A stretch of 64,000 nucleotides of DNA from Myxococcus stipitatus (GTDB taxonomy: Bacteria > Myxococcota > Myxococcia > Myxococcales > Myxococcaceae): assembly GCF_038561935.1 (NCBI RefSeq), contig NZ_CP102770.1:4030001-4094000 (forward strand), read 5' to 3'. The notes beneath the pieces were generated by a model. It was not told where the DNA came from and made no database searches. It saw nothing but the letters and a program-made list of their open reading frames with translations. This document shows positions 14,039-58,542 of this stretch, piece after piece. The position numbers and the translations under genes are program-made. Numbering within the stretch: position 1 is the stretch's first letter; each line of letters begins with the position of its first letter.

Positions 14039-14208
14039 GGCGGGCCCCAAAGCGAAGGCCATGCCAGCGTGCCAGAGCCGAAGGCTCCCTGCGCGGAACG
14101 GGGCTTGTCCCCCCGCCTGGCGCTCCGAGGTTTCACGGATACGGGAAGTGGCGTCCCGGAAACGAACACCCGCCCCGACCCGAGAGGGAGGGGCGGGTGC
14201 GGGGATGG

Positions 14209-16551: not shown

Positions 16552-16632
16552 GGCCCCTGGACTCTGACCCGTGCGAGGGGGTGGGTCAAGGCAGCGGTTG
16601 ACGCGTGGGCCGGGAGCGGGGATACACGCGCC

Positions 16633-17667
16633 ATGACGCTCGCCTCGGTGCTGGGACAGCCCCGCGCGATTGATTCACTTCAGGCGGCCCTTCGCGCGGG
16701 CGCGGTTCACCATGCGTACCTCTTCGCGGGGCCCGAGGGGGTGGGCAAGGAGCGGGCGGCCATCGGCCTGGCCCAGGCCCTCACGTGCCCCGAGCAGCCG
16801 GACGTGGGCTGTGGCACTTGCGCCAGCTGCGTGCGGGTCGCTCGCGGACTGCATCCCGATGTCACCTGGGTGATGCCGGATGATGAGCGGGTGTCGCGAG
16901 GGCTCGCGGGGCGCTCGGACTTCACGGGCACGCCGAGCCGCGACCTGCGCGTGGAGCAGATTCGAGGGCTCCAGGAGCGGCTCGCGCTGCGCGGCCTGGA
17001 GTCGCGCCGCAAGGTGGCCATCCTCGTCTCCGCGCAGGCGATGAACGTGCAGGCGCAGAACGCGTTCCTCAAGACGCTGGAGGAGCCGCCGTCGGACACC
17101 ACGCTGGTGTTGGTGGCGAGCGCCATGGACAAGCTGCTGCCCACCATCCGCAGCCGGTGCAGCAAGCTCCACTTCGGTCCGCTCCCGGTGGAGCTGGTCG
17201 CCGAGCGCGTGCGCACCGAGCGCAAGCTGGACGCCGACACCGCGCAGCTGGCGGCCATCATGTCGGGCGGAAGCCTGGGGCGGGCCCTGGCGCTGGACGT
17301 GGCGGCGCTGGCGCGGCGCAAGGACGTGGTCTCCGCCTTCGAGTCGCTGCGAGGCGAGGACGCGGTGGGCCTGCTGCGCTTCGCGGACGAGCACGGCGGC
17401 TCGCGCGAGGACGCCGAGGCGACGCTGGAGCTGCTGGTGCTGTGGACGCGCGACGTGGCGCTGGCGAAGGCGGGGCAGGAGGCGCTGCTGGCCAATCGGG
17501 ACCTGCGCACGCTCGCGGTGGAGGTGGCCTCGCGGCACTCCGAGGTGTCGCTGCACCGCAGACATGTGTTGTTCGAGGGCGCTCGCGCGGCGGTGGCTCG
17601 CAACGGCGCGCCCAGGCTTCAGCTGGAGCGCATGCTCATCGATTTGTTCACGGAGGCCTCGCGATGA
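16633..17667 (+). CDS. holB: DNA polymerase III delta-prime (clamp-loader) subunit
   Basis: This is a 344-residue protein. The ATG at 16633 (MTLASVLGQP) gives the canonical start, since the upstream open frame overlaps the divergent channel gene. The AAA+ P-loop GPEGVGKE is at about 33-40. A zinc module has Cys52, Cys60, Cys63 and Cys66. FLKTLEEPPSDTTLVL and LPTIRSRCSKLHF (SRC arginine finger) complete the family pattern. It works with delta and tau/gamma to load the beta clamp at the fork. Its stop overlaps the holA start by 4 bp, so translation of the two clamp-loader subunits is probably coupled. Confidence 0.9.
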   Translation: MTLASVLGQPRAIDSLQAALRAGAVHHAYLFAGPEGVGKERAAIGLAQALTCPEQPDVGCGTCASCVRVARGLHPDVTWVMPDDERVSRGLAGRSDFTGTPSRDLRVEQIRGLQERLALRGLESRRKVAILVSAQAMNVQAQNAFLKTLEEPPSDTTLVLVASAMDKLLPTIRSRCSKLHFGPLPVELVAERVRTERKLDADTAQLAAIMSGGSLGRALALDVAALARRKDVVSAFESLRGEDAVGLLRFADEHGGSREDAEATLELLVLWTRDVALAKAGQEALLANRDLRTLAVEVASRHSEVSLHRRHVLFEGARAAVARNGAPRLQLERMLIDLFTEASR

Positions 17668-18980
17668 GCTCGGAGCTCGATGACGTCCTGGCGGGAGTGA
17701 AGGCCGGGAAGGTCGCGCCGCTGTATCTCCTGTGGGGCGAGGAGTTCCTGGTCCGCAAGGGCGCCGACGAGCTGGTCAAGGCGCTGGTGCCCGACGCGGC
17801 GGTGGGGCTCAACCTCGTCCCGCTGGACGCGGGCAGCCCGCGCGAGGTGGCGCAGGAGCTGGCCACGATGCCCCTGTTCCCGGGGCGCAAGGTCGTCCTC
17901 GTGAGGGACCCGGAGTTCCTCGCGCCGAAGAAGGGCCGGGGAGATCCACTGGCCAAGGCCCGCGAGGCGTGGAAGGCCAACAAGCGCAAGGAGGGCGCGC
18001 GGCGGTTGCTGGCGCTCGCGGCGCGCGCGGGCTGGGGCGTGGACCAGTTGGACCCGTCCGCTTCGGGGGCTCCGTCGGTGGAGCAGTGGAAGGAGGAGCT
18101 GAACGTCGACCTCGCGGAGGCGGACGTGGCGTTCCTCAAGGAGGTTGCGGCCTTCTGCAAGGAGGAGCGCATCCACGCGCCGGAGGGCGATGCCACGGTG
18201 CTGCTGGACCTCATCCAGAAGGGTGTCCCGGCGGGGCACGCGCTGGTGATGGCCGCGTCCGAGGTGGATGCGAAGAATCCCCTGGTGAAGCTCGCGCAGG
18301 ACAAGGGCCACGTCGTCGAGCGCAAGGTGGCCGCGCGCCACAAGGACCTGGACCTCACCGACATCGCGAAGGAGTTCCTGGCGCCCTTCAAGAAGAAGCT
18401 GGGGCCCGGCGCGCTGGAGGAGCTCAAGGAGCGCGTGGGCGGCAACATCCGCCTGCTGCAGTCGGAGCTGGAGAAGCTCGCCACGTACTCGGAGGGCCCC
18501 GCCATCGAGCGCTCCGACGTGGTCATGCTGGTGCACCACGCGCGCGAGGAGGAGTTCTTCGAGCTGTCGGAGGCGCTCCAGAAGCGCGACTTCCGAGGCG
18601 CCCTGTCCTACGCCGAGGATGCGATGGGGCAGGGGACGCACGCGCTGCAGCTTCTGGGCGCGGTGGCCTCCATCGTCCGCACGCTGCTGGAGAGCCACGA
18701 GTGGCTGATGCGCTACGCGGGAGGCACACCGCCGCGCACCGCGAAGGACGTGGAGGCGCGCGTGTTCCCCCGGCTGGAGGCCGAGCTGAAGGGCACCAAG
18801 CGCAAGATGCCCAACGCCTGGGCGCTCACGTTCAGCATGAAGGCCGCGGCGGGGTACGAGCGCCGGGAGCTCCTGGGCTCGCTGGTGGCGTGCGCGGAGG
18901 CGGACCTGGCGCTGAAGTCGTCGGGCAACGGACGGCTCATCATCGAGCGGCTCCTGGCCACCGTCTGCACCGGCGCCTGA
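17664..18980 (+). CDS. holA: DNA polymerase III delta subunit
   Basis: This is a 438-residue protein starting at ATG 17664 within the holB stop. Family features are YLLWGEEFLVRKGADEL at the N-terminus and TMPLFPGRKVVLVRDPEF (clamp-interacting region). The middle contains ERVGGNIRLLQSELEKLATY, and the C-terminal half is helical (FELSEALQKRDFRGAL...). It is about 100 residues longer than the typical ~340. The extra segment is roughly residues 90-190 (KKGRGDPLAKAREAWKANKR onward), charged and helical, splitting the N-terminal ATPase-like fold. The function (opening the beta clamp) is assigned from the family; the insert's role is unknown. Confidence 0.85.
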   Translation: MSSELDDVLAGVKAGKVAPLYLLWGEEFLVRKGADELVKALVPDAAVGLNLVPLDAGSPREVAQELATMPLFPGRKVVLVRDPEFLAPKKGRGDPLAKAREAWKANKRKEGARRLLALAARAGWGVDQLDPSASGAPSVEQWKEELNVDLAEADVAFLKEVAAFCKEERIHAPEGDATVLLDLIQKGVPAGHALVMAASEVDAKNPLVKLAQDKGHVVERKVAARHKDLDLTDIAKEFLAPFKKKLGPGALEELKERVGGNIRLLQSELEKLATYSEGPAIERSDVVMLVHHAREEEFFELSEALQKRDFRGALSYAEDAMGQGTHALQLLGAVASIVRTLLESHEWLMRYAGGTPPRTAKDVEARVFPRLEAELKGTKRKMPNAWALTFSMKAAAGYERRELLGSLVACAEADLALKSSGNGRLIIERLLATVCTGA

Positions 18981-19042
18981 AGGACGGGCGGGCGCGTGGG
19001 GGACGTGCACTTGGCGTCCGGCTCGGGTAGAGGAGGCCGCGT

Positions 19043-19504
19043 ATGGCGGACAAGCGTCGCTTCGACCTCTTCGCGGACCTCATCGTGTCGCGCTTCGTGG
19101 CTCCTCGCGTCTTCGACGTGGCGGGAGGGCAGGGGAAGCTCAACGAGGCGTTGACCCGGCGCGGTCGCGTCGTCACCACGTTCGACCTGAGGCACAAGCA
19201 CCTGCCCGTGACGTATGCGCAGCGCATCTTCACGCTGGACGAGCCCTGTGACGCGGAGCTCGTGGTGGGCATGCACCCGGATGGCGCCACGCGGGTCATC
19301 ATCGAGTACGCGGCCAGGCACCGGCTGCCCTTCGCGGTGGTGCCGTGTTGCTCCGACAACGGCATGCCCTACAACCCGTGGATGCGGCACCTGGCCGAGC
19401 TTGCCCGCTCGGCGGGCTTCACCACGGTGGAAGAGGTGACGCTCTCCATGGATGGCCGCGCGCGGGTGCTGGTGGGCGAACACTCGCCCGTGGAGCCGCG
19501 CTGA
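19043..19504 (+). CDS. Small SAM-methyltransferase-like protein
   Basis: This is a 153-residue protein. Motif I of a class I methyltransferase appears as FDVAGGQGKLNEAL. The acidic end of the second strand is TTFDLRHKH. A cysteine pair sits in VVPCCSDNGMPYNPW where catalytic motif IV would lie. The size is small for a complete enzyme, so it may be a compact variant or act on a small substrate or tRNA. It follows holA by 62 bp on the same strand and may ride on that transcript. Confidence 0.55.
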   Translation: MADKRRFDLFADLIVSRFVAPRVFDVAGGQGKLNEALTRRGRVVTTFDLRHKHLPVTYAQRIFTLDEPCDAELVVGMHPDGATRVIIEYAARHRLPFAVVPCCSDNGMPYNPWMRHLAELARSAGFTTVEEVTLSMDGRARVLVGEHSPVEPR

Positions 19505-40116: not shown

Positions 40117-40198
40117 GCCCAGGTGGTGGAACTGGTAGACACACCATCTTGAGGGGGTGGCGCCGAAAGGTGTGCGGGTTCGAATCCCGCCCTGGGCA
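40117..40198 (+). tRNA. tRNA-Leu (anticodon GAG)
   Basis: This is an 82-base type II tRNA. The acceptor stem GCCCAGG pairs with CCTGGGC and the discriminator base is A; CCA is not encoded. The anticodon stem CCATC/GGTGG holds the loop TTGAGGG, placing GAG at positions 34-36, which reads CUC/CUU leucine codons. A long variable arm (GCGCCGAAAGGTGT region) and the T arm with GGTTCGAATCC confirm the leucine class. Confidence 0.95.
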
Positions 40199-40240: not shown

Positions 40241-40321
40241 CATTTTCTGCGCATGGCTTCCTGTGCTGGTGCCTCGCCAATCCGGGGCGGGACATGTCTG
40301 GACCCTGCCGCCCTTCGTCGC

Positions 40322-40930
40322 TCAATCCACCGGCCCTTCTTCCCCAAGCTCGAAGAGGACCACCCCCGCGCAGCGAGGGGATTGAGCCAGCGCTGCCTCC
40401 AGTGTGTCGGCCGTGTCTGCCCCTGCCACCGCCATCAAGAGGACAGGGCTTTCACCGGGCTCTACCTTCCAGCGGTTCCCCGGCATCCAACCTTGTGAGC
40501 GGCGCGACTGGTAGAACACCCGGACGTGCTCTCCAGGAGCCTGGACAGGGTTGAGCTCGAGGATGAGCCCCTCCTTGACGAAGAGCGATTCAATGGCTCC
40601 CCAGGCAGGCGCGGTCAGCAGCTCGGGCGCCCTGGCGGTGGGGCCCAGGAGCGCCGTGAGGGACGGTGGCTGGAGATGAACTCGCAGCGCCACACCGGAG
40701 AGGGGGCGTGTCTTGCGCCTGAGCTTGCTCAAGGCTGAAGCGAGCCAGGGGTGGTTGAGGACCTCCGTGGCGAATCGGTCCATCTTCGCACGCCGGACCA
40801 CGGCCTCTGCCCATCGCTCCGCTGCGTCCGGTGTCGTGAGCAGGTTGCTCCAGGCGTCGGCGCTCTCCGGATCGTCCGCGCCTTGAACGAGTGCATCGAG
40901 AGTCACGAAGTCCATGGGCTTGCGGTTCAT
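40322..40930 (-). CDS. Unknown protein, last gene of the CHAT operon
   Basis: This is a 202-residue soluble protein that I do not recognise. The first ~75 residues are helical and charged (ADAWSNLLTTPDAAERWAEAVVRRAKMDRFATEVL). The second half is beta-rich, ending in EHVRVFYQSRRSQGWMPGN and SPVLLMAVAGADTADTLEAAL, a pattern like a small sensor or substrate domain. It overlaps the 333-aa gene by 4 bp and is always co-transcribed with it if the layout is a guide. By position it could be a protease substrate or an anti-sigma-like partner of that gene's product, but the sequence alone does not show this. Confidence 0.6.
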   Translation of the reverse strand: MNRKPMDFVTLDALVQGADDPESADAWSNLLTTPDAAERWAEAVVRRAKMDRFATEVLNHPWLASALSKLRRKTRPLSGVALRVHLQPPSLTALLGPTARAPELLTAPAWGAIESLFVKEGLILELNPVQAPGEHVRVFYQSRRSQGWMPGNRWKVEPGESPVLLMAVAGADTADTLEAALAQSPRCAGVVLFELGEEGPVD

Positions 40931-41928
40931 GGATGCCTCCTGGGGATGGAGGGAAGCGCTTCGATGCGGCGCTCCAGTTCAGGGCTTGCCCCTTCATCCA
41001 GGGAAAATGTGGCGAGGGTGGTTCGGGTCACGGACTTGCGCAGGAGCGTCCACTCCATGAGGGCGATGGCGTCTGCGAGATCCGGTGGCTCGTCGAGCGT
41101 GTTGAGCAACTGGTGGAGGAGGGCTCTGACGCCCTCGCGCCGCAGGCGTTGGACGGCCCGTTTCTCCTTGGGAACCTGTAGGGGCATTGCCGCGGCGATC
41201 TCTTCTTCCGTTCGCCAATAGGGGGGGTGGTTCCGGCAGGGACTGAACAGCCACTCCCTGACAGCGAGCTGCTCAGGGGGCATGTCCTTTCCCCAGTGAA
41301 GCAACTTGCAGAAGAGGCTGGCGAAGCGGAACTGCGCATTATGCACGTGCAGGCTTCTGTCCTTCTTCGCGGATGGCTCGTGAGCGGTCTCGGGGACGGG
41401 CAAGTCGAACCACTGCGCGCGAAGCTCCTCCGTGGCTCGCAGCCACCAGGTGACGAGGTCCGGGCACGTGCGAGTGCGCAGCTCGGACAGCGTGCGATAC
41501 AGCCGCTGGATCAGCTGCTGCACACCCGGGCCGAGCACGGGCTCGTCCGTGGGTTCCGGGGACTTGGAGCAAGCCGCGTCGTTCCAGCGGGCCTCCTCCA
41601 GCATCTGCATCTTTCGCCTGAAGCCCGCGGAACCCTCTCGCTGGGAGAGCCAGAAGTGCGGCTGGGAGAAGAGGCGCCATGTTCTTGAAGACTGACTGAG
41701 CTGTCCCGGATCCAGGTTGCCAGTGGCGAACCGCTCGAGGCACCAGTCGACGGCGTCCTCGAGGGTGTCGAACCGGAACGCGTCGAGCAGGCTCTGCTCC
41801 CCATAGGGCTCTGCCATCCGTGCGAGGCTGTGGTGAAGCAGGAGCGCGAGGACTTCGCGGTGCTCTTGCACCAATGCGGCGCGTCCTTCCCGAGACCAAT
41901 CGGTGATGGGCATATCCAGCTTGGGCAT
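40927..41928 (-). CDS. Unknown helical protein, weakly sigma-factor-like, CHAT operon
   Basis: This is a 333-residue soluble protein. An N-terminal stretch (AFRFDTLEDAVDWCLERFATGN, then RTWRLFSQPHFWLSQREG) has a faint likeness to sigma region 2. Near residues 240-285, YWRTEEEIAAAMPLQVPKEKRAVQRLRREGVRALL has the spacing of a sigma region-4-type helix-turn-helix. Trp, Arg and Leu are abundant. The similarity is by eye and may be chance. The gene begins 3 bp after the CHAT reading frame stops and overlaps the 202-aa gene by 4 bp, so all three belong to one operon. Confidence 0.55.
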   Translation of the reverse strand: MPKLDMPITDWSREGRAALVQEHREVLALLLHHSLARMAEPYGEQSLLDAFRFDTLEDAVDWCLERFATGNLDPGQLSQSSRTWRLFSQPHFWLSQREGSAGFRRKMQMLEEARWNDAACSKSPEPTDEPVLGPGVQQLIQRLYRTLSELRTRTCPDLVTWWLRATEELRAQWFDLPVPETAHEPSAKKDRSLHVHNAQFRFASLFCKLLHWGKDMPPEQLAVREWLFSPCRNHPPYWRTEEEIAAAMPLQVPKEKRAVQRLRREGVRALLHQLLNTLDEPPDLADAIALMEWTLLRKSVTRTTLATFSLDEGASPELERRIEALPSIPRRHP

Positions 41929-41931
41929 GGG

Positions 41932-44900
41932 CTACACCCCCCACCAACGGAAAGCCCCCAGGTGCGATGGCTGGCACAGCTCTGCCACCAGTTGCTCTCC
42001 AGAGAGGTTCTCCACCTGGGGCGAGTCCGCGCCGTCGGCGTACGGCACGAGCAGGCCGGGATCGATCTTGAACAAGCGCTCCGCCGCGGTTCTCCGCAGG
42101 TGATCGAGCTGCTCAAGCACCTGGCGCACCGTCCACGGGCCCTCATGTCGTCGAAGCTCCTGTAGGGCTGTGTCCGTCAGGCATAGTGCTCGGCTCAGCG
42201 CCTCGGGGCGGTGGCCGATGTTCCGCCGCATCAGCCCATAGTGCTCACAGACCAGGGCCTTGATGATGTCGTGGACCGGCCAGGCCAGGTCGATGACCGC
42301 CAAGGCTCCATTGGCGAGGAAGCTCGCGGCGAGACCGGGGATGCGGTCTCCCTCATTGCGCAGGGCATTCATTGCGCCCGCGCTCCCGGCGGTGCATGCC
42401 CACAGCTCCACCACTTCGCAGCGCGGCATGAGCATCCCGTGAGTGTTCCGCTCGCGAAGCGCCCTGCGTCCCTCCAATTGCAAGAGCGCCAAGGTGTCGT
42501 TGAGCGTCGCTGCCTTGCCAACCCCATACAGGCGCAGGGTCCGAATTCGGGCGGCATGAGACTCCAGACTCCTCACCTCCACGACATTCCTGTCGTCGAG
42601 TTCGCGAGGATCGACCACCAGATGAGGGGGCTGAATGCGCCGCAGCGTCTCCACAGCCGCCTCGCCAAACCCGGTGCTGCCATTCTCCTGGTCCCGAGCG
42701 AGCAGGCAGGCCGTGAAGTCGAGGGCCGGGGGCTCCCATGGTAGGGCGGAGAAGCCAAGTGACGGCAGGTGGACGAGCATCTCGACCTGGTGCGCGAGGA
42801 GCTTCCCTCCGACCCTCAAGCCGAGCAGTGGCAGCTCACGCAGGGCTCCCGGAGCCAGGATGCTCCATCTCAGCGGCTTCCTGGCTTGCGCCACACGGAG
42901 CAGCGATTCGAGCACCGGCGCCAGTGCCGCCTCCACCTTGCTCCAGCCGTTCCGGCGCATGGCCGAGGAAGTGCCTCGGTGGGAGTCGAAGTCCTCTTCG
43001 CAGAGGTGCAAGGCCCCCAGGAGTCCGTCCTGCACCCCGCCTGTCTCCACTCGGAAGGTGCGCTGGCCACGGGTGTGCCCGTCGTTCCAGCACGCCATGA
43101 CCAGCACTGCTCCGGAGGGCTCGATGACGAGCCCGAGGACACCGTGTCCGTCTCGCATCTCCCGCAGGGCCTTTTCGTTCGCCTCCAGGTCGCGTCCCGG
43201 CTCGATGATGCTCGTCATTCCTGGAAACTCACTGACGCCCATGCGCTTCCGGCCTTGCTCATCGGCTTCGAGGAGACGCGACCAGGTCTTGGCGATGTCC
43301 TCCTCGAGCCAGGTCGAGAGACAGGTGGCTTCGAAGGCGGCGGTATGCGGCACGCGCGAGCCCTCTTTTCGAAGTGTGTGGCACACCTCTCCAAGGCTCC
43401 AGGCCGTCATCGCCGTCTCCTCCGGGATCTGCGATGACAACTCCAAGGAAGACAGCGCATAGGGATCCCAGAGGTGTGGTTGCGTCAGCTCGCTCCGGGA
43501 GTCCATCGCGGGCAACAGGGCCGCATCGGTCAGCGTGGTGTGAAGGAGCCTCCGGATCCTCAGCAAATCCCAGAGGTACTTCAGCAGGGGCGGGAGGGCG
43601 TCCTGGTTCAGCACTTCGGGCAGACGTGCGAGTCGATGGAGCACGGTCAGTCGCAGGTCGCAGGAGTACTGCAAGCACGCCAGGAGGTGAATCGCGTGGT
43701 CTGGTTGGGCGCGGGCATGTCCAGCGAGGTACCCATTGAGCATCCATCGATAGGCGGGGCCTGGGGTGCCTGTCATTCGCACCAGGGGCGCGCGATCATC
43801 CGTGGGGTATCCCCACAGCGCCCCTTCCATCCGGTTGAGTGCCTCATTGAGGCCGCGGGGCAACACGCCCGCGCCTGGACGCCTCCCCTCCTGATGGGTC
43901 TTGTGGTTGACGACGGCCACGAGCTCCTCGGGGGGCAGGAAGGACAGTGCTGCATCAAGAGGCAACGGTTCGCCGCCCAGGCGTTCGAGCAACCCCATGA
44001 GACGGTACACGGCCGGCAGGGTTTCCGGGTGTGACCACTGCTCTGGCGTCAGCTTGAACAGCCCTTCCAGGTGGCTCGCGTAGCGAGTCCGCACCGCAGG
44101 GGTGCCCAGCGCGATCAGCTCGGCCGCGGTTGTTGCCACTCGGAGCGCTTGGACTGTGCCCGGGGTCACCTGGGACAACGTCGGGAGCACTTCATCGATG
44201 GCAGCCTGGACCATCGAGTCGGAATCCTCCATCAAGCCGTGGGTGACCTCCTGAAGGAAGCGCAACCGAGCCCGTGCTGCCGTGGCATCAGCGGACAGGT
44301 TCGGGGAACCCGGAGAGACATGGGCCAGGAGACGCTCCGCCCGGGCCAATGGCACGGTATGGGGGAGCAGTGGTCGGAGATCTCCTCCTTGGGCGACGTC
44401 GAGCCAGAGATGCGCGGCCTCGGTGGCCAGCTGCTCCCGCTCAGGGGGCGCGATGCTCGGAACCGCCAGCGCTTCGTGAATCCATGCCAGCGCGGCGAGC
44501 AGATTGTCGAGCTGGGAGGAGTTCAGTCGCTCACGCAGCAGCCTCGCCACGCGCAGGGCTCGCTCGGGGGAGGGAGGCTCCCCTGGAGCGGCGGAGAACT
44601 CTCGTTCGAGCCATTGGTCCTGCAGTTCATCGAAGGAGGTGGGCGCCGAAAGCTCTTGTGAGAGGAGCTGCTGCAGATGCGCCTGCTCCTCGGCGGTGAG
44701 CGCCCGTTCCGGGACTGGGGTCCATTCCTTCTCGGACTTCCACTCCGGCAAGCCGACGAAGCGAATCCCCGCCCACGAGATCGGGCAGGACAGACGCGAC
44801 TCGAGCTCGTTCACCTCTTGCTCACTCATCTGCTCCGGGAGGGGACCCAGCATTCCCAACACAGGTCCGCGTAAATCCTGTCTGAGCGGGAGGTCCAAGG

Positions 44901-45924
44901 TGTCAACGAAAGAGGCAATGGCCTCGTTGACGGGATGAGTCCGCAGGCACTGGAGCAACCTCGGGAGACTCTGCTCAAGCCAGTGCCGCTGAGCGCCTGT
45001 CAGGGCTCGAGCTGGCTCCTCGCCCGAGGCGAGCCGCCGCCTGTATTCCCGTGCCACGGTCGCGGTCACCAGATCCGGTACGGACCACTGTGTCCCGATG
45101 GCGGTGCGCACCCCGCTCATGAGCAGGATGTGGTCCAGTCCGTATCCCTCGTTCGAGGGGCGTGTCATGGGGTCGTGGGGGAGGTTTGTGCCTGACTGAC
45201 ACGCCCAGAGCTCCACTCGCTCCATCCCATCCAGCGCCTCTGCGCCGAAAGCACTGACGTCGAGCATTCCTCCCGCCAGCGACAGCTGGGGCCTCGCCCC
45301 TGGAGGGTGCTCTCCGTGGGTGTAGATGCTGAGCGTTCGGGCCTCCCCGAGGACACCTTGAATGGCTTCGCGCGTTGCCTGTGCTCCCTCCAGGCAGCGC
45401 TCATGTGGGCGCAGGGTCTGGAAGGCGATGGGGTGGAAATGTGTCCCTCCTGGGATGACCACCCACTCCTCGGTTCGAGGAGGTGTGGGCGCCGGGCGGG
45501 TGCGCAGCGGAAAGAGGCTGGGGAGCCAGATGATGGACTCGAACCGGTCGATGAGCCGACTGCCCTTCGGGCCGAGTGCAACGAGCGGAAGGTATGTCGA
45601 CTCATGGGAGGGCAGCAGGACCGCGCGGGCCCATGTCCCTGGGGGAAAGGCCGCGGAGAGGTCGAGCTCCCGCAGCAGCTCGGCCAGCCGCTCGGATTGG
45701 GTGAAGGTCCCGATGTTCTCAGCGGCATGCTGAACGAGGTGGAAGACCTCTCCGCGAATGGGGCAGGTGGTGCTCCGGGCCTTCAACTCCTCCCCTTCGA
45801 GCCACGCGGTGATGGCCAGGAGCTCACTCTCTTGTACGAAGAGGCGGACCAGGACGCTGCCTGGATGCTGGCGCAGCACTGCTTCGAGGGCCTTGGGGCC
45901 GAGGTTCTGGTTGAGGACTTGCTG
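41932..45924 (-). pseudogene. 3' part of an IS-disrupted TPR-CHAT-CHAT gene (two CHAT domains)
   Basis: The frame is open from the IS junction (45924) to the stop at 41932, 1,330 codons. Its first possible start is GTG 45879, but coding character (QQVLNQNLGPKALEA) runs back to the junction. Numbering from that GTG, a first CHAT domain at about 90-310 has His188 (YTHGEH), Cys227 (LWACQSGTN) and the GTQWSVPD strand. About 330-1000 is a long helical region without a named fold. A second CHAT at about 1080-1240 keeps Cys1162 (LWACTAGS) but shows LYGVGKA where the His-Gly is expected. CHAT proteins are caspase-like proteases. Expression of this fragment alone would need a promoter in or near the IS. 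Confidence 0.8.
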
Positions 45925-45927
45925 AAC

Positions 45928-45954
45928 TGAGCCTCCCCGGGTTTTGTGGACACC
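45928..45954 (+). repeat. Left terminal inverted repeat of the IS3 element
   Basis: These 27 bp start TGAGCC and contain CCCGGGTT and TGTGGACA. By my alignment 22 of 27 positions match the reverse complement of the right end. Confidence 0.85.
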
Positions 45955-45974
45955 GGAGATGAGGTGACCGAAGG

Positions 45975-46283
45975 ATGTCCACGACGATGCCGAGACGCGA
46001 GCGCAGGAAGTACACGCCCGAGTTCAAAGCCCGGGCTGTGAAGATGGTGCTGGAAGAGGGCAAGTCGCGAGCCCAGGTGGCCAAGGACCTGGACCTGACT
46101 CGCAGTGCGCTGGAGGCATGGATGAGGCAGTCCCGAACGGACGCGGGCCAGGGGCCGTCCGGGGCGCTGACGACGGGTGAGAAGGAGGAACTCGCTCAGT
46201 TGCGCCGCGAGGTGCGCCAGCTGCGGATGGAGCGGGAGATACTAAAAAACGCGGCGGCCTTCTTCGCCAAGGAGAGCACGTGA
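45975..46283 (+). CDS. IS3-family transposase OrfA
   Basis: This is a 102-residue protein. A helix-turn-helix of the Tnp-8/HTH_1-like type (KYTPEFKARAVKMVLEEGKSRAQVAKDLDLTRSALEAWMRQ) occupies residues 13-50 and should bind the terminal repeats. A leucine-zipper-like coiled coil (ELAQLRREVRQLRMEREIL) follows. The last codons overlap orfB by 4 bp. A run of six A (46244-46249) near the end is a candidate -1 slippage site that would fuse OrfA to OrfB. Confidence 0.92.
   Translation: MSTTMPRRERRKYTPEFKARAVKMVLEEGKSRAQVAKDLDLTRSALEAWMRQSRTDAGQGPSGALTTGEKEELAQLRREVRQLRMEREILKNAAAFFAKEST
46244..46250 (+). promoter_or_regulatory. Candidate -1 ribosomal frameshift site (AAAAAAC) of the IS
   Basis: OrfA is in one phase and OrfB in the -1 phase. 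The -1 frame is open from this A6 run through the OrfB start. Slippage here would make an OrfAB fusion transposase, the usual active form in IS3 elements. Confidence 0.6.
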
Positions 46284-47155
46284 GGTTCACGGCCATCCAG
46301 GAGGAGAAGGCGAACTACCCGGTGGCGATGCTGTGCCGTGTGCTGGAGGTGTCCCGAGCGGGCTACTACGCCTGGGAGGGACGTGAAGCGTCGGCACGCC
46401 AGAAGGCCAATGCGGCGCTGGTGGAGCGAATCCAGCAGGTGCATCAGGACAGCCGCCGCACCTATGGTAGCCCACGCGTCCAGGCCGAGCTGAAGGCCCA
46501 GGGGCTGCCCGTGGGCCGGCACCGCGTGGCCCGGCTCATGCGCGAGGCTGGGCTCCGCGCTCGTCGACGCAGACGGTTCGTGCACACCACGGACTCCAAG
46601 CACGGCCTCCCGGTGGCGCCCAACGTGCTGGCTCGCGACTTCAATCCACCAAGGCCCGACCGGACGTGGGCGACGGACATCACGTACGTGCCCACGCGGG
46701 AGGGCTGGCTCTACCTGGCAGTAGTGCTGGACCTCTTCAGTCGGCGCGTCATCGGTTGGGCCATGGACCGCTGCATCGACCGGCACCTGGTGCTTTCGGC
46801 TCTCGACATGGCGCTCAAAGGTCGCTGTCCCCCAGCGGGACTGTTGCACCACTCGGATAGGGGCAGCCAATACGCCAGTGAGGACTACCAGCGAGCGCTG
46901 GCCGCCCGCGGCATCCGATGCAGCATGAGCCGCAAGGGCAACTGCTGGGACAACGCCGTGGTGGAGAGCTTCTTCTCCACGCTGAAGACAGAGCTGGTGC
47001 ACGAAGCGGACTTCTCGACGCGCGAGGCGGCGAAGGGTGGCTTGTTCGAGTTCATCGAGGTGTTCTACAACCGCAAGCGGCGGCACTCCTCACTTGGCTA
47101 CGTCAGTCCCGCCGAGTTCGAGAAGACCGCCTCGCAGGTGCCACTGGCTGCTTAA
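46280..47155 (+). CDS. IS3-family transposase OrfB (DDE integrase)
   Basis: This is a 291-residue frame starting at GTG 46280. It contains an HTH_21-type N-terminus (YPVAMLCRVLEVSRAGYYAW, RRTYGSPRVQAEL) and an rve integrase core. The catalytic triad is Asp in TWATDITYV, Asp in HHSDRGSQYAS and Glu in DNAVVESFFSTLKTE. The C-terminus YNRKRRHSSLGYVSPAEFE is typical of the IS3 group. It is full length and shows no stop or frameshift, so the element appears competent. Confidence 0.95.
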   Translation: MRFTAIQEEKANYPVAMLCRVLEVSRAGYYAWEGREASARQKANAALVERIQQVHQDSRRTYGSPRVQAELKAQGLPVGRHRVARLMREAGLRARRRRRFVHTTDSKHGLPVAPNVLARDFNPPRPDRTWATDITYVPTREGWLYLAVVLDLFSRRVIGWAMDRCIDRHLVLSALDMALKGRCPPAGLLHHSDRGSQYASEDYQRALAARGIRCSMSRKGNCWDNAVVESFFSTLKTELVHEADFSTREAAKGGLFEFIEVFYNRKRRHSSLGYVSPAEFEKTASQVPLAA

Positions 47156-47159
47156 CCCA

Positions 47160-47186
47160 CCTGTCCACAGAACCCGGGCAAGCTCA
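47160..47186 (-). repeat. Right terminal inverted repeat of the IS3 element
   Basis: Read on the minus strand it starts TGAGCTTG and contains CCCGGGTT and TGTGGACA like the left end. Its terminal TGA is in frame with the interrupted TPR gene and acts as its new stop codon. Confidence 0.85.
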
Positions 47187-48665
47187 AACCTCCACATAGG
47201 CCGCATCCACTTGGGCGAGTGCGTTGCGCAGGCGGCGCACCTGTCGAGCCCCCTGCTCGACCTGGGCGTCGAAGAATTCGGAGGGGACAGGTGCCTCTCG
47301 GGCCTCGATGCACCTGGGCAGCATGAAGAGGGAGTCCTTGTTCTCTGCCTGCTTCATCTGGGAGATGAGGGCGTCGAGGATCTCCCGCTGGACATCGGGG
47401 GTTTGGTGTTTCATCGACTGTGCATAGCTGTCCAGCAGGTACGTCTGGCCCATGTGCTTCGACAGTTCATGGTAGAGCGCCTTGGGCAACGGTTCCTGCG
47501 GCCTTCGCATATGTGAGGAGAGGTTCTCGGCGAAGCGGAAGCCGCTCGTGTTCTCGAGGGCCAGGAAGGCACGCAGCGCATCTTGCAGGTCCTGCGCGAG
47601 GATTCTCGCCACGAGCTCCGCGGCATCCTGCATGTTGATCGACGCCGCATCTGCCTCGGAGTCGGAGATGGTGGCCAGGGCTCGGTGTTGGATCGCCTTC
47701 TCGATGAAGGTGCTCAGCAGTTCGATGGCCGCATGAGGCGCATCGCAACGCCGGAGCAGGACCGCCAGGTGTCGCTGGTGCTCGAACGCGTCCACGTGGT
47801 TCCAGCGCACTTGCTCCAGCAGGGGCCGGGCGCGAGTCTTTCGGTCGGGGGTATCTCCCGCGAGGATGATCTCCGCGAGCTCCATGCGCGCGAGTGCCTG
47901 GTTCAGTGCGTCCCCCTCGTGGATGACCTCCTTCGCCAGTCGTTCGGCCTGCTGGAGGTCCTGCTTGCGTCCACGCATGCGCAGCAGGCTCGCCGACGAG
48001 AGCCGGGCGCGCAGGGGGACGGCATGGCGGGAGGGACCGAAAAACGCTTGGGCGTGCCTGGCGCACTCCGCCGCCCGGTCATACTCGCGGAGGGCTCGTT
48101 CGACGTCTCCATGCTCGGCTCCGAGGAAGTTGGCGAGGTTCAGGTGGACCTGGGAGAGCTGTTGAAGGCCCAACTGGCCACAGCCTTCGAGGCGCCAGAG
48201 TGCACTCCTGTAACGTCGCTCAATCTCGTCGAAGAGGAGTGCTCGCTTCTCCTGCGAGACGAGGCGCGCCATCCGGCGGAGGCAGACGGCGAGAGAGCTT
48301 TCGGTCTCCGCGGACCGGAGCGGGGCTCGTTGGCGAGACGGCGATTCCAGTGCACGGCTGTAGAGTTGTCGGGCGGTGGCGAGGGCGAAGAAGCTCTCGG
48401 TCTCCTCCGAGAGTTCATGTGCCAGGTCATGGCGAGCGGCTGCCGCCGCGGCGCTGTGATCCTCCTCGGAATGGAGCGCCAGCGCTTGCCGGAAAAGTGG
48501 GAGTGCTTCCTTCCTGCGTCCCATGGCGCTCAGACGCTGGGCACGCAGCCGCAGGTTCAAAGACTCAGGATGTGCTTCGAGGGCCCGGTCGTAGGCTTCT
48601 TCATCTCGAAACGCCTGGCTGCTCTTCTGGGCTTCCGCTAGGACCTTCCTTTTTGACCACAGCAT
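47184..48665 (-). pseudogene. 5' part of an IS-disrupted TPR-CHAT-CHAT gene (TPR-like region)
   Basis: The start is ATG 48665 (MLWSKRKVLAEAQ), preceded by a strong AGGAGG; an open extension beyond it has no coding likeness. The 493 codons encode helical hairpins of TPR type (YDRALEAHPESLNLRLRAQRL, MGRRKEALPLFRQALALHSEE, VHLNLANFLGAEHGDVERALREYDRAAECAR, and more). The last native codon is GTT, within the AAC duplication, and the IS adds TGA. Without the IS the frame passes directly into QQVLNQN of the 41932-45924 part, giving about 1,823 residues in all. TPR arrays usually bind the partner or trigger that activates the CHAT protease. Confidence 0.8.
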
Positions 48666-48960
48666 GTGAGCTCCTCCTGCCCCCATAGCGAAAAGCCTCT
48701 GCTGGGTTTCCCCGAACGAGCTCGTTTCGGGGGCGGTCACTGAACCCAGGTCAGGCGCGGAGGCGCTGCGGAGGTGATCCACCCAGCCGAAGGCCGGGAG
48801 GTCATCGCACAATGGATGAGGCGGGGGCCGTGTGCGGAAAACTCAACGGAAGGCGTCGCCCAGGCACGCGGGCGCGCCTTCCGTGGGTGTCTCAACCACC
48901 CCTTCTTCGCGAGAGGTCAGTACGGACTCCCTGTCGACGAGGAGCGGTGCGACCACCGAC

Positions 48961-49422
48961 CTACGGATTCGGGGTCCAGCAGACGAACACCTCTTCCACA
49001 TAGTTCGACACGTAGTTGTTGGCATCCAGGACGCGGAATCGGAAGTACTTGCGATAGTACCGCCCGCCCGTGCGCAGTCCTTGGATGCAGGAGTCTTGGA
49101 TTGAGGTGGTTCCATCGCGCCACGTGTGGTTCTCTGGCGCGGGACTGGTTCCGAGATCATGGGCCCGTTGCCACTGGTAGCGATACGGAGGCACGCCGTT
49201 GCTGGCGCTTCCGGTGCAGGTGATCTTGTTGTTCAGGGGGTATTCGTCTTCGCAATACATCGTCACCGTCGGCGGGGGGATCTCGAGTTCCGCGGCCGTC
49301 TCGCCGGTTTGAGGCAATCCAGTCTCTTCGGGCATCGGTCCGCCACAGGCGCCCAGCAACGACATTGCAGTGACAAGGACCGCGCCAGTCCAGGTGTTCT
49401 TGATGAGGCTTGAAGCCGCCAT
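48961..49422 (-). CDS. Predicted lipoprotein
   Basis: This 153-residue protein starts at ATG 49422 (MAASSLIKN), with GGAG six bases upstream. A hydrophobic helix ends in the lipobox MSLLGACGG, so Cys is lipidated after signal peptidase II cleavage. The mature chain has an acidic/Pro spacer, then an Ig-like beta domain (PTVTMYCEDEYPLNNKITCTG, PPYRYQWQRAHDLG, YFRFRVLDANNYVSNYVEEVFVC) with four Cys. It probably sits on the outer membrane. The function is unknown. It is separated from the TPR start by about 295 bp in which no other gene is visible. Confidence 0.75.
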   Translation of the reverse strand: MAASSLIKNTWTGAVLVTAMSLLGACGGPMPEETGLPQTGETAAELEIPPPTVTMYCEDEYPLNNKITCTGSASNGVPPYRYQWQRAHDLGTSPAPENHTWRDGTTSIQDSCIQGLRTGGRYYRKYFRFRVLDANNYVSNYVEEVFVCWTPNP

Positions 49423-49546
49423 GGAGCACTCCATCGGGTGAGGGGAAGGCGGCTCAGTATTGATTGATTTGCAGGAGAAACAGGATTGCAGAAGTGGGAG
49501 TGTTGGAAAGTGGTCAAATGCGGCGGGTTCCGGGAGCTCCGAATCC

Positions 49547-50869
49547 TCACTCGAGGGCCACCCTCCAGTCGGGAGGCCAGATGCGTGGCCGATACGTGGG
49601 GTCCTGTCGCCATGCCGCGACTTCGTCCCGCCAGCGAGGCCAGTCCGCGTGTTGTCCTCGGCGCTCGACGAGGCCCGACGTGTGGCTCGCGAAAGCCAGG
49701 ATGAGCAACGGGAGCGCGAGCGCGCGCCGCATCCGGCTGAAGCGGTTGTTTTCGTCCGGCGCCAAGGCCGAGATGACCAGGAGCAACACGAGGACGGCGG
49801 GGACGTAGAAATAGCGGCCATAGCCCCCCGTGGGGAGCACGAGCTGCGACTTGTCGCCTGAACCGAGTGAACCCACCATGCACAATGCCGCGAGCAGGGG
49901 ACCGCTCACGGCGAGCAGCCGCACCTGGAACCGCTGTCGGTACTGCATCGCCCAGCTCCACCCGAGCAGAAGGACCGCACAGCCTCCCGCGAGGAGCACC
50001 GCGCGCCATGGCAACGCGCGGCCTCGCACCACCGCGGACGCCAACCGGTGGGCCAGGGGCAATCCCAGCACAGGCTCGAAGAGGGCTCGGGTCACCAGCG
50101 AGGTGGAGATGACGTCGAGAGAGGGCCTCGCCCGCCCAGCGCTCGCGGCCTCGAGTCCCTCTCGCAGAAACGCCGCGCCCCAGATGGCCAGGTGTGCCCC
50201 GACACACGCGGTGAGCAGGCCGGCCTGGATCCACGCCTCGCGTTGACGCGTCCTCCAAGCGCGCCACAGGAAGAGGGGAAGGAGGAAGCAGGTGACCGGT
50301 CCGGTCATCCCCGCGAGCACCAGCAGGGCCCTTCGGGCCCACAGCCCGGACCGCGAAGGCTCACCCTCGGATTCGAGCAACAGGAGCACGCTCGCGAGCG
50401 CGAGGTGGAACTGGGAGTTGATGGTGTTGAGCCACACCTCCTCGGAAGGGGAAGCCAGGATGAGGGCGGCGAGCGCGAGCGCCTGCCGGCCCGGGGTCCG
50501 GAGGAAGGCGATACGGCCCGCGAGCACCAGGGCGACGGGGATGAGCTGGATGCCCAGCGCCAGGAGGGTGGTGACCCAGGGGCCTGCTTCCGGCCTGGGG
50601 AGGCTCGCGAGAAACCCGGCCAGGTTGCTGAAGAGGGAGTAGTACCCCAGGTGTGGCGTCGCGAGCGCGGCGACCCCCACGTCGCGCGCATGCTCGAAGT
50701 ACACCGTGGCCTCCTCCGCCCAGAAGCGTGGCGAGCGCAGGAGGAGGGGCTCGCGCAGACAGATCCCCATGACCGCGGCGAAGAACAAGAGCCCTGCGTG
50801 GGGGCGTGTGGTGGTGTCTGGCGGAGCGGAGGTCGGCACGGTGCGGAGGGCTGTGGGCGCCGGAGTCAC
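49547..50869 (-). CDS. Polytopic membrane protein (glycosyltransferase-like)
   Basis: This is a 440-residue protein started at GTG 50869, which has AGGTGG about seven bases upstream. It has about nine to ten hydrophobic helices spread over residues 30-400 (LLFFAAVMGICL, LLALGIQLIPVALVLAG, WRAVLLAGGCAVLLLGW, VPAVLVLLLVISAL). The first extracytoplasmic loop contains FWAEEATVYFEHA, with the acidic pair that GT-C-type glycosyltransferases carry there. The soluble tail is short. It may transfer a sugar from a polyprenyl carrier, but no acceptor is indicated. Confidence 0.65.
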   Translation of the reverse strand: MTPAPTALRTVPTSAPPDTTTRPHAGLLFFAAVMGICLREPLLLRSPRFWAEEATVYFEHARDVGVAALATPHLGYYSLFSNLAGFLASLPRPEAGPWVTTLLALGIQLIPVALVLAGRIAFLRTPGRQALALAALILASPSEEVWLNTINSQFHLALASVLLLLESEGEPSRSGLWARRALLVLAGMTGPVTCFLLPLFLWRAWRTRQREAWIQAGLLTACVGAHLAIWGAAFLREGLEAASAGRARPSLDVISTSLVTRALFEPVLGLPLAHRLASAVVRGRALPWRAVLLAGGCAVLLLGWSWAMQYRQRFQVRLLAVSGPLLAALCMVGSLGSGDKSQLVLPTGGYGRYFYVPAVLVLLLVISALAPDENNRFSRMRRALALPLLILAFASHTSGLVERRGQHADWPRWRDEVAAWRQDPTYRPRIWPPDWRVALE

Positions 50870-51458
50870 TGTGCCACCTCGAGAGCGTTCCCTCAAAACC
50901 CAACTCGCCTGAGCGACTGACCACACGTCGCGCTCAGCGAGGCCCTCCGAGCGCCGTACCTGGGGAGGCGCGCTTCAGGGGCGGCCCAGGTGTATGTCCG
51001 GATTCCGAGCCAGACATATGAAAGATGGCGGAATGCCGCGTCGCGCCAGCACCAAGTCAGACACTTCATGACCCGTGTGCGTGTTTTCCAGGGGATTCAA
51101 AGACATTCATGGAAATCCTCCAGTCCAACTGTCCCTCTCATTCCTGTCTTCCACGCCTTGATTGGGAATGTTGGGTCCGAACTCACCCGGTAGGTGGGGC
51201 CCATACGGGGCAATGGAATGGCAAAGTGTGTTGCCCTTGGAAAGTCATTGGAGCTCTTCCATGCATTGTTCGTGAGCCGCTATTATTCGTCCTCGTGGCT
51301 TGTGCAGTTGCAATCCACCAGGGAGGGGGGGCTTGTGAAGACGAGTCAGCCGAGTACAGGTCTGTGCTTGGACGTCAGGCGTCGATTGTCGAGCAGGGGG
51401 CTCATGGTGCAATCACCGTGGATGCAGTCGTTCATCCACGAAACTGCGAGGAGGGGAC
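50870..51458. other. Long intergenic region upstream of the first halogenase
   Basis: These 589 bp are less GC-rich than the surroundings (for example around 51090-51260). I find no convincing gene, tRNA or terminator in them. The last 49 bases form the leader shared, in diverged form, with the second halogenase, including the GAGGAGGGG ribosome-binding site. Confidence 0.4.
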
Positions 51459-53060
51459 ATGGACACCGCGATTCGTGAGGTGGTGATTCTGGGAGGTGGG
51501 ACGGCGGGCTGGATGGCCGCGGCCTATCTTCAGAAGGTCTTCGAGGGCACCGTCCAGGTGACGCTCCTGGAGGCAGCGACCATCCCGAGGATCGGGGTGG
51601 GGGAAGCCACGGTCCCCAACCTGCAACGCGTCTTCTTCGACCGGCTGGGCATCCCCGAAGACGAGTGGATGCGCGAGTGCAACGCCGCCTTCAAGACGGC
51701 GGTGAAGTTCGTCAACTGGCGCAAGAAGGAGCCCGGCGCTCCAGACAATCATTTCTACCACGCGTTCGGACTCATCCCGAACGTGGACAACATCCCGCTG
51801 TCTCACTACTGGGTGCTGCGCAACGAAGGATGTGAGCGGCCCGATGAGGGAGTGGACTACGCCTGCTACCGCGAGCCGCCGATGATGGACGCGAAGCTGG
51901 CACCGCGCTTCCGGGACGGTCGGCCCGCGGTCAACTACGCGTGGCACTTCGACGCGCAGCTGGTGGCGGACTACCTGCGGCGGCTGGCCACGGGGTGGGG
52001 CGTGAAGCACGTCGTGGACGAGCTGGCGTCGGTGGAGAAGAGGCCAGACGGACACATCAAGGCGCTGCACACGCGAGGCGGCCGTGTGCTGGAGGGTGAC
52101 TTCTTCGTGGACTGCAGTGGCTTCCGGGGCCTGCTCATCAACCAGGCGATGGAGGAGCCGTTCCTCGACATGAGCGACCACCTGCTGTGCAACAGCGCGG
52201 TGGCGACGGCCATCGAGCATGATGACGCGCGGTTCGGAATAGAGCCCTACACGTCGGCGATAGCGTCGAAGCACGGGTGGATGTGGAAGATTCCGATGCT
52301 GGGGCGATTCGGGACGGGGTACGTCTATTCGAGCAACTTCTGCTCGCAGGACGAAGCCATTCGCGAGTTCTCCGCGAAGTGGGGGCTGGACCCGGACAAG
52401 ACGGCATTCAATCGCATCCGGTTCCGGGTGGGCCGAAACCGGCGCGCGTGGGTGAAGAACTGCGTGAGCATCGGGCTTGCGTCGTGCTTCGTGGAGCCGC
52501 TGGAGTCCACCGGCATCTACTTCATCACCGCGTCCATCTACCAATTGGCGAAGCACTTCCCGGACAAGGGATTCAACCCGGTGCTGGTGGACCGTTTCAA
52601 TCGAGAGATTGAGATGATGTTCGACGACACCCGGGACTTCCTGCAGGCGCACTTCCTCACGTCGTCGAGGGACGACACGGCGTTCTGGTTGGCGAACAAG
52701 AACGACTTGAAGCTGTCGGACGCGCTGAAGGACAAGCTGGAGACGTGGAAGGCGGGCCTGACGGTCAACATGCCGGTGTCGGGCGAAGAGGCGTACTACG
52801 GGAACTTCGAGACGGAGTTCCGGAACTTCTGGACGAACAGCAGCTACTACTGCGTGTTGTCGGGGATGGGGTGGAGGCCGGAGCAGCCGCTGACGACGCT
52901 GAAGTACCGGCCGTCATCGGTGGCGCACGCGGAGGAGGCCTTCCAGCGCATCAAGCTCCAGCAGCAGGCGCTGCTCCAAGGCTTGCCGAGCAACCACGAG
53001 TTCCTCCAGCGGCTGCACCGCAAGAACGGAATGGACCTGGCTCGCACCGGGACCCGGTGA
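51410..53060 (+). repeat. Long direct repeat, copy 1 (partner 56892-58542)
   Basis: The CDS parts differ at about nine positions in 1,602 by my reading. The 49-base leaders align without gaps but at only roughly 65-70% identity. The copies have the same orientation and start 5,482 bp apart, so recombination between them could delete the ABC operon in the middle. Confidence 0.9.
51459..53060 (+). CDS. Flavin-dependent tryptophan-type halogenase, copy 1
   Basis: This is a 533-residue protein. The FAD-binding GGGTAGW is at 12-18, the halogenase-specific WMWKIP at 274-279, the catalytic Lys at 79 (AFKTAVKF) and Glu at 346 (CFVEPLES). These match Lys79 and Glu346 of PrnA, and His101 and Phe103 also fall where PrnA stacks tryptophan. 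It should chlorinate or brominate an indole-type substrate using reduced flavin, halide and oxygen. No flavin reductase, NRPS or PKS gene is nearby, so the partner reductase must lie elsewhere. It starts at ATG with GAGGAGGGG upstream. Proteins of copies 1 and 2 differ only near the end (ARTGTR versus APTGTR). Confidence 0.93.
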
Positions 53061-56940: not shown

Positions 56941-58542
56941 GTGGACACCGCGATTCGTGAAGTGGTGATTCTGGGAGGTGGGACGGCGGGCTGGATGGCC
57001 GCGGCCTATCTTCAGAAGGTCTTCGAGGGCACCGTCCAGGTGACGCTCCTGGAGGCAGCGACCATCCCGAGGATCGGGGTGGGGGAGGCCACGGTCCCCA
57101 ACCTGCAACGCGTCTTCTTCGACCGGCTGGGCATCCCCGAAGACGAGTGGATGCGCGAGTGCAACGCCGCCTTCAAGACGGCGGTGAAGTTCGTCAACTG
57201 GCGCAAGAAGGAGCCCGGCGCTCCAGACAATCATTTCTACCACGCGTTCGGACTCATCCCGAACGTGGACAACATCCCGCTGTCTCACTACTGGGTGCTG
57301 CGCAACGAAGGATGTGAGCGGCCCGATGAGGGAGTGGACTACGCCTGCTACCGCGAGCCGCCGATGATGGACGCGAAGCTGGCACCGCGCTTCCGGGACG
57401 GTCGGCCCGCGGTCAACTACGCGTGGCACTTCGACGCGCAGCTGGTGGCGGACTACCTGCGGCGGCTGGCCACGGGGTGGGGCGTGAAGCACGTCGTGGA
57501 CGAGCTGGCGTCGGTGGAGAAGAGGCCAGACGGACACATCAAGGCGCTGCACACGCGAGGCGGCCGTGTGCTGGAGGGTGACTTCTTCGTGGACTGCAGT
57601 GGCTTCCGGGGCCTGCTCATCAACCAGGCGATGGAGGAGCCGTTCCTCGACATGAGCGACCACCTGCTGTGCAACAGCGCGGTGGCGACGGCCATCGAGC
57701 ATGATGACGCGCGGTTCGGAATAGAGCCCTACACGTCGGCGATAGCGTCGAAGCACGGGTGGATGTGGAAGATTCCGATGCTGGGGCGATTCGGGACGGG
57801 GTACGTCTATTCGAGCAACTTCTGCTCGCAGGACGAAGCCATTCGCGAGTTCTCCGCGAAGTGGGGGCTGGACCCGGACAAGACGGCATTCAATCGCATC
57901 CGGTTCCGGGTGGGCCGAAACCGGCGCGCGTGGGTGAAGAACTGCGTGAGCATCGGGCTTGCGTCGTGCTTCGTGGAGCCGCTGGAGTCCACCGGCATCT
58001 ACTTCATCACCGCGTCCATCTACCAATTGGCGAAGCACTTCCCGGACAAGGGATTCAACCCGGTGCTGGTGGACCGTTTCAATCGAGAGATTGAGATGAT
58101 GTTCGACGACACCCGGGACTTCCTGCAGGCGCACTTCCTCACGTCGTCGAGGGACGACACGGCGTTCTGGTTGGCGAACAAGAACGACTTGAAGCTGTCG
58201 GACGCGCTGAAGGACAAGCTGGAGACGTGGAAGGCGGGCTTGACGGTCAACATGCCGGTGTCGGGCGAAGAGGCGTACTACGGGAACTTCGAGACAGAGT
58301 TCCGGAACTTCTGGACGAACAGCAGCTACTACTGCGTGTTGTCGGGGATGGGGTGGAGGCCGGAGCAGCCGCTGACGACGCTGAAGTACCGGCCGTCATC
58401 GGTGGCGCACGCGGAGGAGGCCTTCCAGCGCATCAAGCTCCAGCAGCAGGCGCTGCTCCAAGGCTTGCCGAGCAACCACGAGTTCCTCCAGCGGCTGCAC
58501 CGCAAGAACGGAATGGACCTGGCTCCCACGGGCACCCGGTAA
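56941..58542 (+). CDS. Flavin-dependent tryptophan-type halogenase, copy 2
   Basis: This is a 533-residue protein started at GTG (copy 1 uses ATG) after GAGGAGGGG. All catalytic features are as in copy 1: GGGTAGW, Lys79, His101, Phe103, WMWKIP and Glu346. The nucleotide differences I find are mostly silent (start codon, codons 7 and about 49, two near codons 430-450) plus a cluster in the last six codons, which includes the single amino-acid change Arg-to-Pro. Sequence beyond the stop codons is unrelated between the copies. Both copies should be active if either is. Confidence 0.93.

Follow-up and report, generated by a model that had tools for sequence, protein, structure and literature searches.

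CHAT-domain proteases are relatives of caspases. In bacteria, the one of TPR-CHAT layout (tetratricopeptide repeats followed by a CHAT domain) that has been studied most closely is Csx29 of Craspase (type III-E CRISPR), and a CRISPR effector activates it. The TPR-CHAT protease of Craspase cleaves Csx30, freeing CASP-sigma (PMC10028731). A protein of similar layout is encoded in a 64-kb window of Myxococcus stipitatus DNA, comprising positions 4030001-4094000 of contig C1 in a 10.17-Mb genome, G000 (hereafter, G-numbers denote genomes, L-numbers denote fetched loci of relatives, and feature positions are those of the window). In this window, a very large TPR-CHAT gene, split by an IS3-family insertion sequence (IS), is followed by two partner genes, d333 and d202. 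The operon is conserved, its first CHAT domain (CHAT1) keeps the His-Cys dyad and its second (CHAT2) has decayed, defence genes adjoin it in some relatives, and the IS3 insertion is recent. The locus is probably a chromosomal antiviral operon of three genes, resembling innate immunity in kind, that has been inactivated in this strain.

The likeness to Csx29 lies in a TPR-like half ahead of a CHAT protease domain whose His and Cys align, and in partner genes encoded alongside. By sequence, the closest solved chains were those of Craspase TPR-CHAT (7zoq_A, E=2.5e-4; 8d9f_A and 7x8a_D, E~0.02), although the similarity to Csx29 is distant and confined to CHAT1, with E=2.5e-4. Unlike Csx29, the window protein is much longer and carries a long middle region and a degenerate CHAT2, no resemblance to known families was detected for its partners, d333 and d202, and no Cas7-11 was found among the neighbours scanned, a scan that was not a dedicated CRISPR search. 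In the literature, covered through titles and abstract openings with most subscription papers outside that coverage, no account of the operon or of a CHAT-viperin link was found.

The large gene is read from the minus strand in two pieces. Its helical TPR-like N-terminal half (47187-48665, minus strand; 493 codons from the ATG at 48665) ends at a TGA (47186-47184) that belongs to the IS end, as the first-pass annotation had stated. The CHAT half (41932-45927, minus strand) consists of the target duplication's Val codon followed by 1330 codons plus a stop, and contains CHAT1, the middle region and CHAT2; the first possible start left to it is the GTG at 45879. Between the halves lies the IS (45928-47186, plus strand, 1259 bp, ends TGAG...CTCA). 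The same annotation had described imperfect inverted repeats and an AAC target duplication, and both were recovered, with 22 of the first 25 positions of the terminal repeats matching and one AAC on the left (45925-45927) and one on the right (47187-47189). The IS encodes OrfA (45975-46283, plus strand), in which frameshifting may occur at an A6 run (46244), and the OrfB transposase (46280-47155, plus strand), whose match to NCBIfam transpos_IS3 (NF033516; E=1e-113, 380 bits against a cut-off of 160) identifies the IS3 type.

Exact restoration of the frame upon removal of the IS, to 493 + 1330 = 1823 codons, had been put forward as a sign of a single split gene. The restoration is true of the sequence but is no evidence by itself, because it follows whenever an IS duplicates 3 bp of its target; on the minus strand each AAC copy reads as a complete GTT (Val) codon in its own half's frame, so that the codon phases of the two halves agree without being joined. 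The claim of a single gene is nevertheless borne out by the relatives, which carry one frame through the site. In all 15 relatives in which tblastn matched both halves (L048-L055, L058, L060-L063, L065 and L066), the TPR/CHAT1 junction lies inside one stop-free frame, and the opposite pattern that the annotation had named as contrary to its claim, relatives always encoding two separate proteins, is not what is found. In fact, L048 and L049 measure exactly 1823 aa from the homologous start, with 72% identity in the CHAT half, and read through the site as ...YAEV-QRVLNQN and ...YAET-QHILNQN, respectively. Judged by these alignments, the two pieces are one ancestral gene of about 1823 codons, into which an IS3 element was recently inserted.

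Beyond the junction, the architecture varies. TPR, CHAT1 and CHAT2 share one frame in ten relatives (L048-L052, L054, L055, L058, L060 and L063). A frame change separates CHAT1 from CHAT2 in L053; CHAT2 is a separate frame in L064, where the TPR half gave no match; L062 has a 1549-aa frame that matches up to query residue 848 and ends near the contig end; L065 (Alteromonas portus) encodes 905 aa without CHAT2; and L066 carries two tandem copies of the gene. In L061, from a deltaproteobacterial metagenome-assembled genome (MAG), the CHAT gene is interrupted after CHAT1 by a transposase open reading frame (ORF), at 11755-14181 of that locus, which matches Mu transposase C-terminal and rve domains. 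The named members come from one contig scan that yielded 11 loci, three of them repeating G loci, and among 35 viral-contig stretches fitting a pattern none was a relative. Within the order, a long match to the CHAT half was found in 8 of 145 genomes (9 loci, this one included), and 15 further genomes gave only short matches, with best E-values per genome from 5e-4 to 2e-8.

Nine full-length (1259 bp) copies of the IS3 element, this insertion included, are present in the genome, six of them flanked by a 3-bp duplication. Among the other eight, seven differ at 10-21 positions and one is identical over 1259 bp; the identical copy, at G000:C1:763612-764871 with an AGT duplication, is a candidate donor or sibling insertion. 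Neither half of the split gene contains a stop, and dN/dS (nonsynonymous to synonymous substitution rates) is 0.23-0.26 for both halves against L048/L049. The insertion is taken to be recent because of the identical copy elsewhere and because the halves carry no other visible damage, in agreement with the first-pass annotation. The split could in principle be tolerated, with the TPR half and a CHAT half begun at the GTG both working, or with the freed CHAT half constitutively active, given that the break falls at a domain boundary, that both halves are open and free of further damage, and that L053 and L064 are divided elsewhere. This is very unlikely, however, as none of the 15 relatives is divided at the TPR/CHAT1 boundary, and an insertion so recent would leave intact halves anyway. 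Furthermore, no outward promoter toward the CHAT half was found in 45860-47250 by a scan limited to the sigma-70 consensus, and the IS genes are oriented opposite to CHAT, d333 and d202. Since translation is halted by the IS once the TPR half has been made, and nothing resembling a promoter was found, the operon is expected to be off; the system is thus probably silent in this Myxococcus stipitatus strain, and the insertion would represent a natural loss-of-function allele.

The first-pass annotation had also described tandem CHAT domains. Two related domains are indeed present, but only the first appears to be competent. Pfam assigns CHAT (PF12770) and nothing else to the CHAT half, in two stretches (E=3e-20, 73.3 bits against a cut-off of 24). 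The best stretch, CHAT1 (44872-45408, minus strand), has its His codon at 45316-45318 and its Cys codon at 45199-45201, and both residues are kept in 15/15 covering rows of a 19-row family alignment that includes fragments but omits L062. CHAT1 is therefore a putative catalytic domain of a caspase-like cysteine protease. In CHAT2 (42145-42927, minus strand; approximate limits drawn from the alignment), the window has Val (42520-42522) at the His position and retains Cys (42394-42396); across the 15 covering rows His occurs in none and Cys in four (the window, L048, L049 and L053). Because the dyad is lost yet the C-terminus of CHAT2 is strongly conserved in the alignment, this domain is most plausibly a degenerate CHAT domain retained for a structural or binding role. 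The TPR assignment is weaker, with Pfam TPR_10 matching below cut-off in the window (E=0.01) and TPR_12 matching better, though still below cut-off, in L065 (E=1.1e-5).

Downstream of the CHAT half, two partner genes overlooked by the first-pass annotation were observed. The first, d333 (40927-41928, minus strand), starts 3 bp past the CHAT stop and is modelled as all-helical (mean predicted local distance difference test score, pLDDT, 84); the second, d202 (40322-40930, minus strand), overlaps d333 by 4 bp and is modelled with a helical N-terminus and a beta-strand C-terminus (mean pLDDT 82). Twelve loci carry CHAT, d333 and d202 together (the window, L048-L053, L058, L060, L063, L064 and L065), the d202 of L065 being assigned by position, the same 4-bp overlap and an alignment at 25% identity, as tblastn gave no match there. 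Neither partner was detected by tblastn in L054, L055, L061, L062 or L066, although the sequence of L062 breaks off too early to be informative. Across the phylum, strong d333 matches were found in 6 of 195 genomes, with the CHAT gene adjoining in all six; one further match, in G192, is weak and partial, covering 52 residues. No second d333 was found in the genome itself, and plasmids, searched with d333 only, gave no match. Against L048/L049, dN/dS is 0.19-0.30 for the four ORF stretches. From gene order and co-occurrence, the large CHAT gene is read as heading a conserved three-gene operon with d333 and d202. No match to either partner was found in Pfam (E<=1), PADLOC (PADLOC-DB 2023, E<=0.01) or NCBIfam (E<=0.1), and the TPR and CHAT halves were likewise unmatched in PADLOC at that threshold. 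Pfam on the d333 family gave a chance-level match in one of 7 members, and solved structures matched by sequence at chance level only (best E 0.19 for d333 and 0.61 for d202).

The Craspase precedent raises an alternative in which CHAT1 cleaves an anti-sigma-like d202 and frees a sigma-like d333, so that the output would be transcriptional; Csx30 is an inhibitor of CASP-sigma (PMC10028731). Other CHAT genes of the genome lend this some weight. Four of the five other CHAT matches (in L130, L131 and L132) have a sigma-70 region 2 match 1.6-2.9 kb away, a proximity with a chance of about 1e-5 by rough arithmetic, given 54 such matches in 10.1 Mb. In three of the four, the CHAT protein itself, with TPRs and an N-terminal zf-HC2 match (one below cut-off), adjoins the sigma gene, and in L131 a separate zf-HC2-TPR protein lies beside the sigma gene. 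These extracytoplasmic function (ECF) sigma loci resemble the window operon in combining TPR and CHAT with adjoining regulatory partners, but differ from it in having one CHAT match each and genuine Pfam sigma and zf-HC2 domains; they possibly form a sigma/anti-sigma-CHAT circuit of their own, to judge from domain content.

For d333 and d202 themselves the comparisons fall short. A sequence pattern had suggested d333 as a sigma factor, an idea that profile comparison did not support and for which Foldseek returned nothing at E<=0.001. With hhalign, d333 scored 0.1% against 20 sigma factors (140-235 aa) of the genome, and its parts 0.2-0.7%, as against 98.9% and 100% for positive controls. In a second structural look, 11 of 50 rows were titled sigma factor or transcription-initiation complex, as judged from row titles without chain identities, but at Z of 3.2-3.9, inside the stated noise. 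As a candidate anti-sigma factor, d202 aligned to zf-HC2 over 47 N-terminal columns in a plausible register with a probability of only 1.9%, and was rejected; Foldseek found nothing for it at E<=0.001, the best VIA hit being an RSC subunit at Z 6.0. A sigma/anti-sigma role for the two partners is not supported by these comparisons, and the transcriptional alternative is considered unlikely.

The antiviral reading draws on the company that the operon keeps. To look for viperins, the window and L048-L066 were searched by tblastn, the queries being four viperin sequences and one further neighbour protein. The prokaryotic viperin pVip was found only in L060, L063, L064 and L065, and PADLOC confirms all four (E 3e-50 to 2e-111). 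It lies downstream of the operon, starting 54 bp (L060), 58 bp (L063) and 9 bp (L064) after d202; in L065 one ParE-like toxin ORF (12790-13137) stands between d202 and pVip. Upstream of the operon in L060 (Sorangium cellulosum So ce26) are the BREX genes PglZ (E=2e-107) and BrxHI (E=2e-263), and a PDC-S68 protein (PADLOC E=0) adjoins L066. Known defence genes (pVip, PglZ, BrxHI and PDC-S68) thus adjoin five loci, a count from hand-picked neighbours with no background rate. Among other neighbours are a caspase-domain ORF at L055 and a WD40-GTPase-phosphoesterase protein with partial PADLOC matches at L051.

Several observations weigh against an antiviral role. pVip occurs at only 4 of the 12 loci, and since two of these come from one MAG, in three lineages; none was found in the 64-kb window. 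Of 27 neighbour proteins, pVips included, 14 are unmatched in PADLOC, a hand-picked set rather than a census. Strong pVips number 15 in Myxococcota at E<=2.6e-61, the set used alone, as a count at E<=0.001 (188 of 195 genomes and 14 of 14 controls) is useless, other radical-SAM enzymes evidently having been picked up. Ten of the 15 were fetched, two of them on short contigs, and none has CHAT, d333 or d202 in its stretch; the link between pVip and the operon is therefore specific to some lineages. In addition, Csx30 fragments of Craspase are reported to have given no defence against three tested phages (PMC10028731).

A mechanism consistent with the preferred antiviral reading can be outlined. 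The TPR half would hold CHAT1 in check until an infection signal arrives, CHAT2 would serve as a scaffold or docking domain, and activated CHAT1 would cleave a partner, for which d202 and d333 are the first candidates; cleavage might then release an antiviral response, including that of the adjacent viperin in some lineages. The first-pass annotation had proposed a caspase-like immune effector, of which the immune role remains plausible in view of the pVip, BREX and other PADLOC neighbours, but a stand-alone effector is less likely; the protease more likely acts as a regulated switch on its partners. As a complete scheme, an undescribed CRISPR-independent TPR-CHAT system, in which the sensing TPR half unlocks CHAT1, CHAT2 presents the substrate, d202 or d333 is cleaved and the response is coupled in some bacteria to the chain terminators that viperin makes, can be advanced only tentatively, at somewhat less than even chances. 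If true, one operon would unite caspase-like proteolysis with viperin, both ancient themes of immunity; the operon also supplies two unnamed partner families whose cleavage is directly testable.

The operon occupies a variable chromosomal spot, edged by tRNA-Leu(GAG) (40117-40198, plus strand). In five relatives, including the three closest by PGK, homology to the window stops at this tRNA or <=80 bp beyond it, and in G017 exactly at its 3' end. The operon is absent from all five, which are therefore unusable as an empty-site comparison for the IS. In two near relatives the spot holds the defence genes Hp1/Hp2 (G017, a sister species) or a phage integrase (G006), occupants that favour the antiviral reading, and in G019 (L097, 9378-13586) it holds an ORF of 1402 aa that partially matches the PADLOC model PDC-S73. 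An integrated element would leave a copy of the last 26 bases of the tRNA beyond the operon, but none was found in 40300-52000 at <=6 mismatches, so there is no sign that the operon itself was integrated at the tRNA. Variability of this kind, together with the many neighbours lacking a PADLOC match and the presence of CHAT matches at 6 places in the genome, would also suit a protease of development or stress that has no connection with phage, with the defence neighbours reflecting mere clustering of accessory genes in islands. This explanation is improbable, however, for pVip, BREX and PDC-S68 neighbours occur in separate lineages and the gene is patchily distributed in the order (8 of 145 genomes). 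Defence systems typically show such patchiness.

Damage or insertion in the operon was observed at six loci: the window, L049, L053, L058, L060 and L061. A transposase lies between CHAT and d333 in L049, and d333 contains a stop in L058. In L060, pVip is in two pieces (15701-19175), and the intervening ORF matches Mu transposase C-terminal and rve domains. Recurrent breakage reflecting a cost of the operon is a lead only, as the window was chosen for its insertion, no background rate is available, and L053 and L058 are possibly assembly errors. Farther along the window, two paralogues of about 533 aa (51459-53060 and 56941-58542) resemble flavin-dependent tryptophan halogenases, and the ORFs between them resemble ABC-transporter genes.

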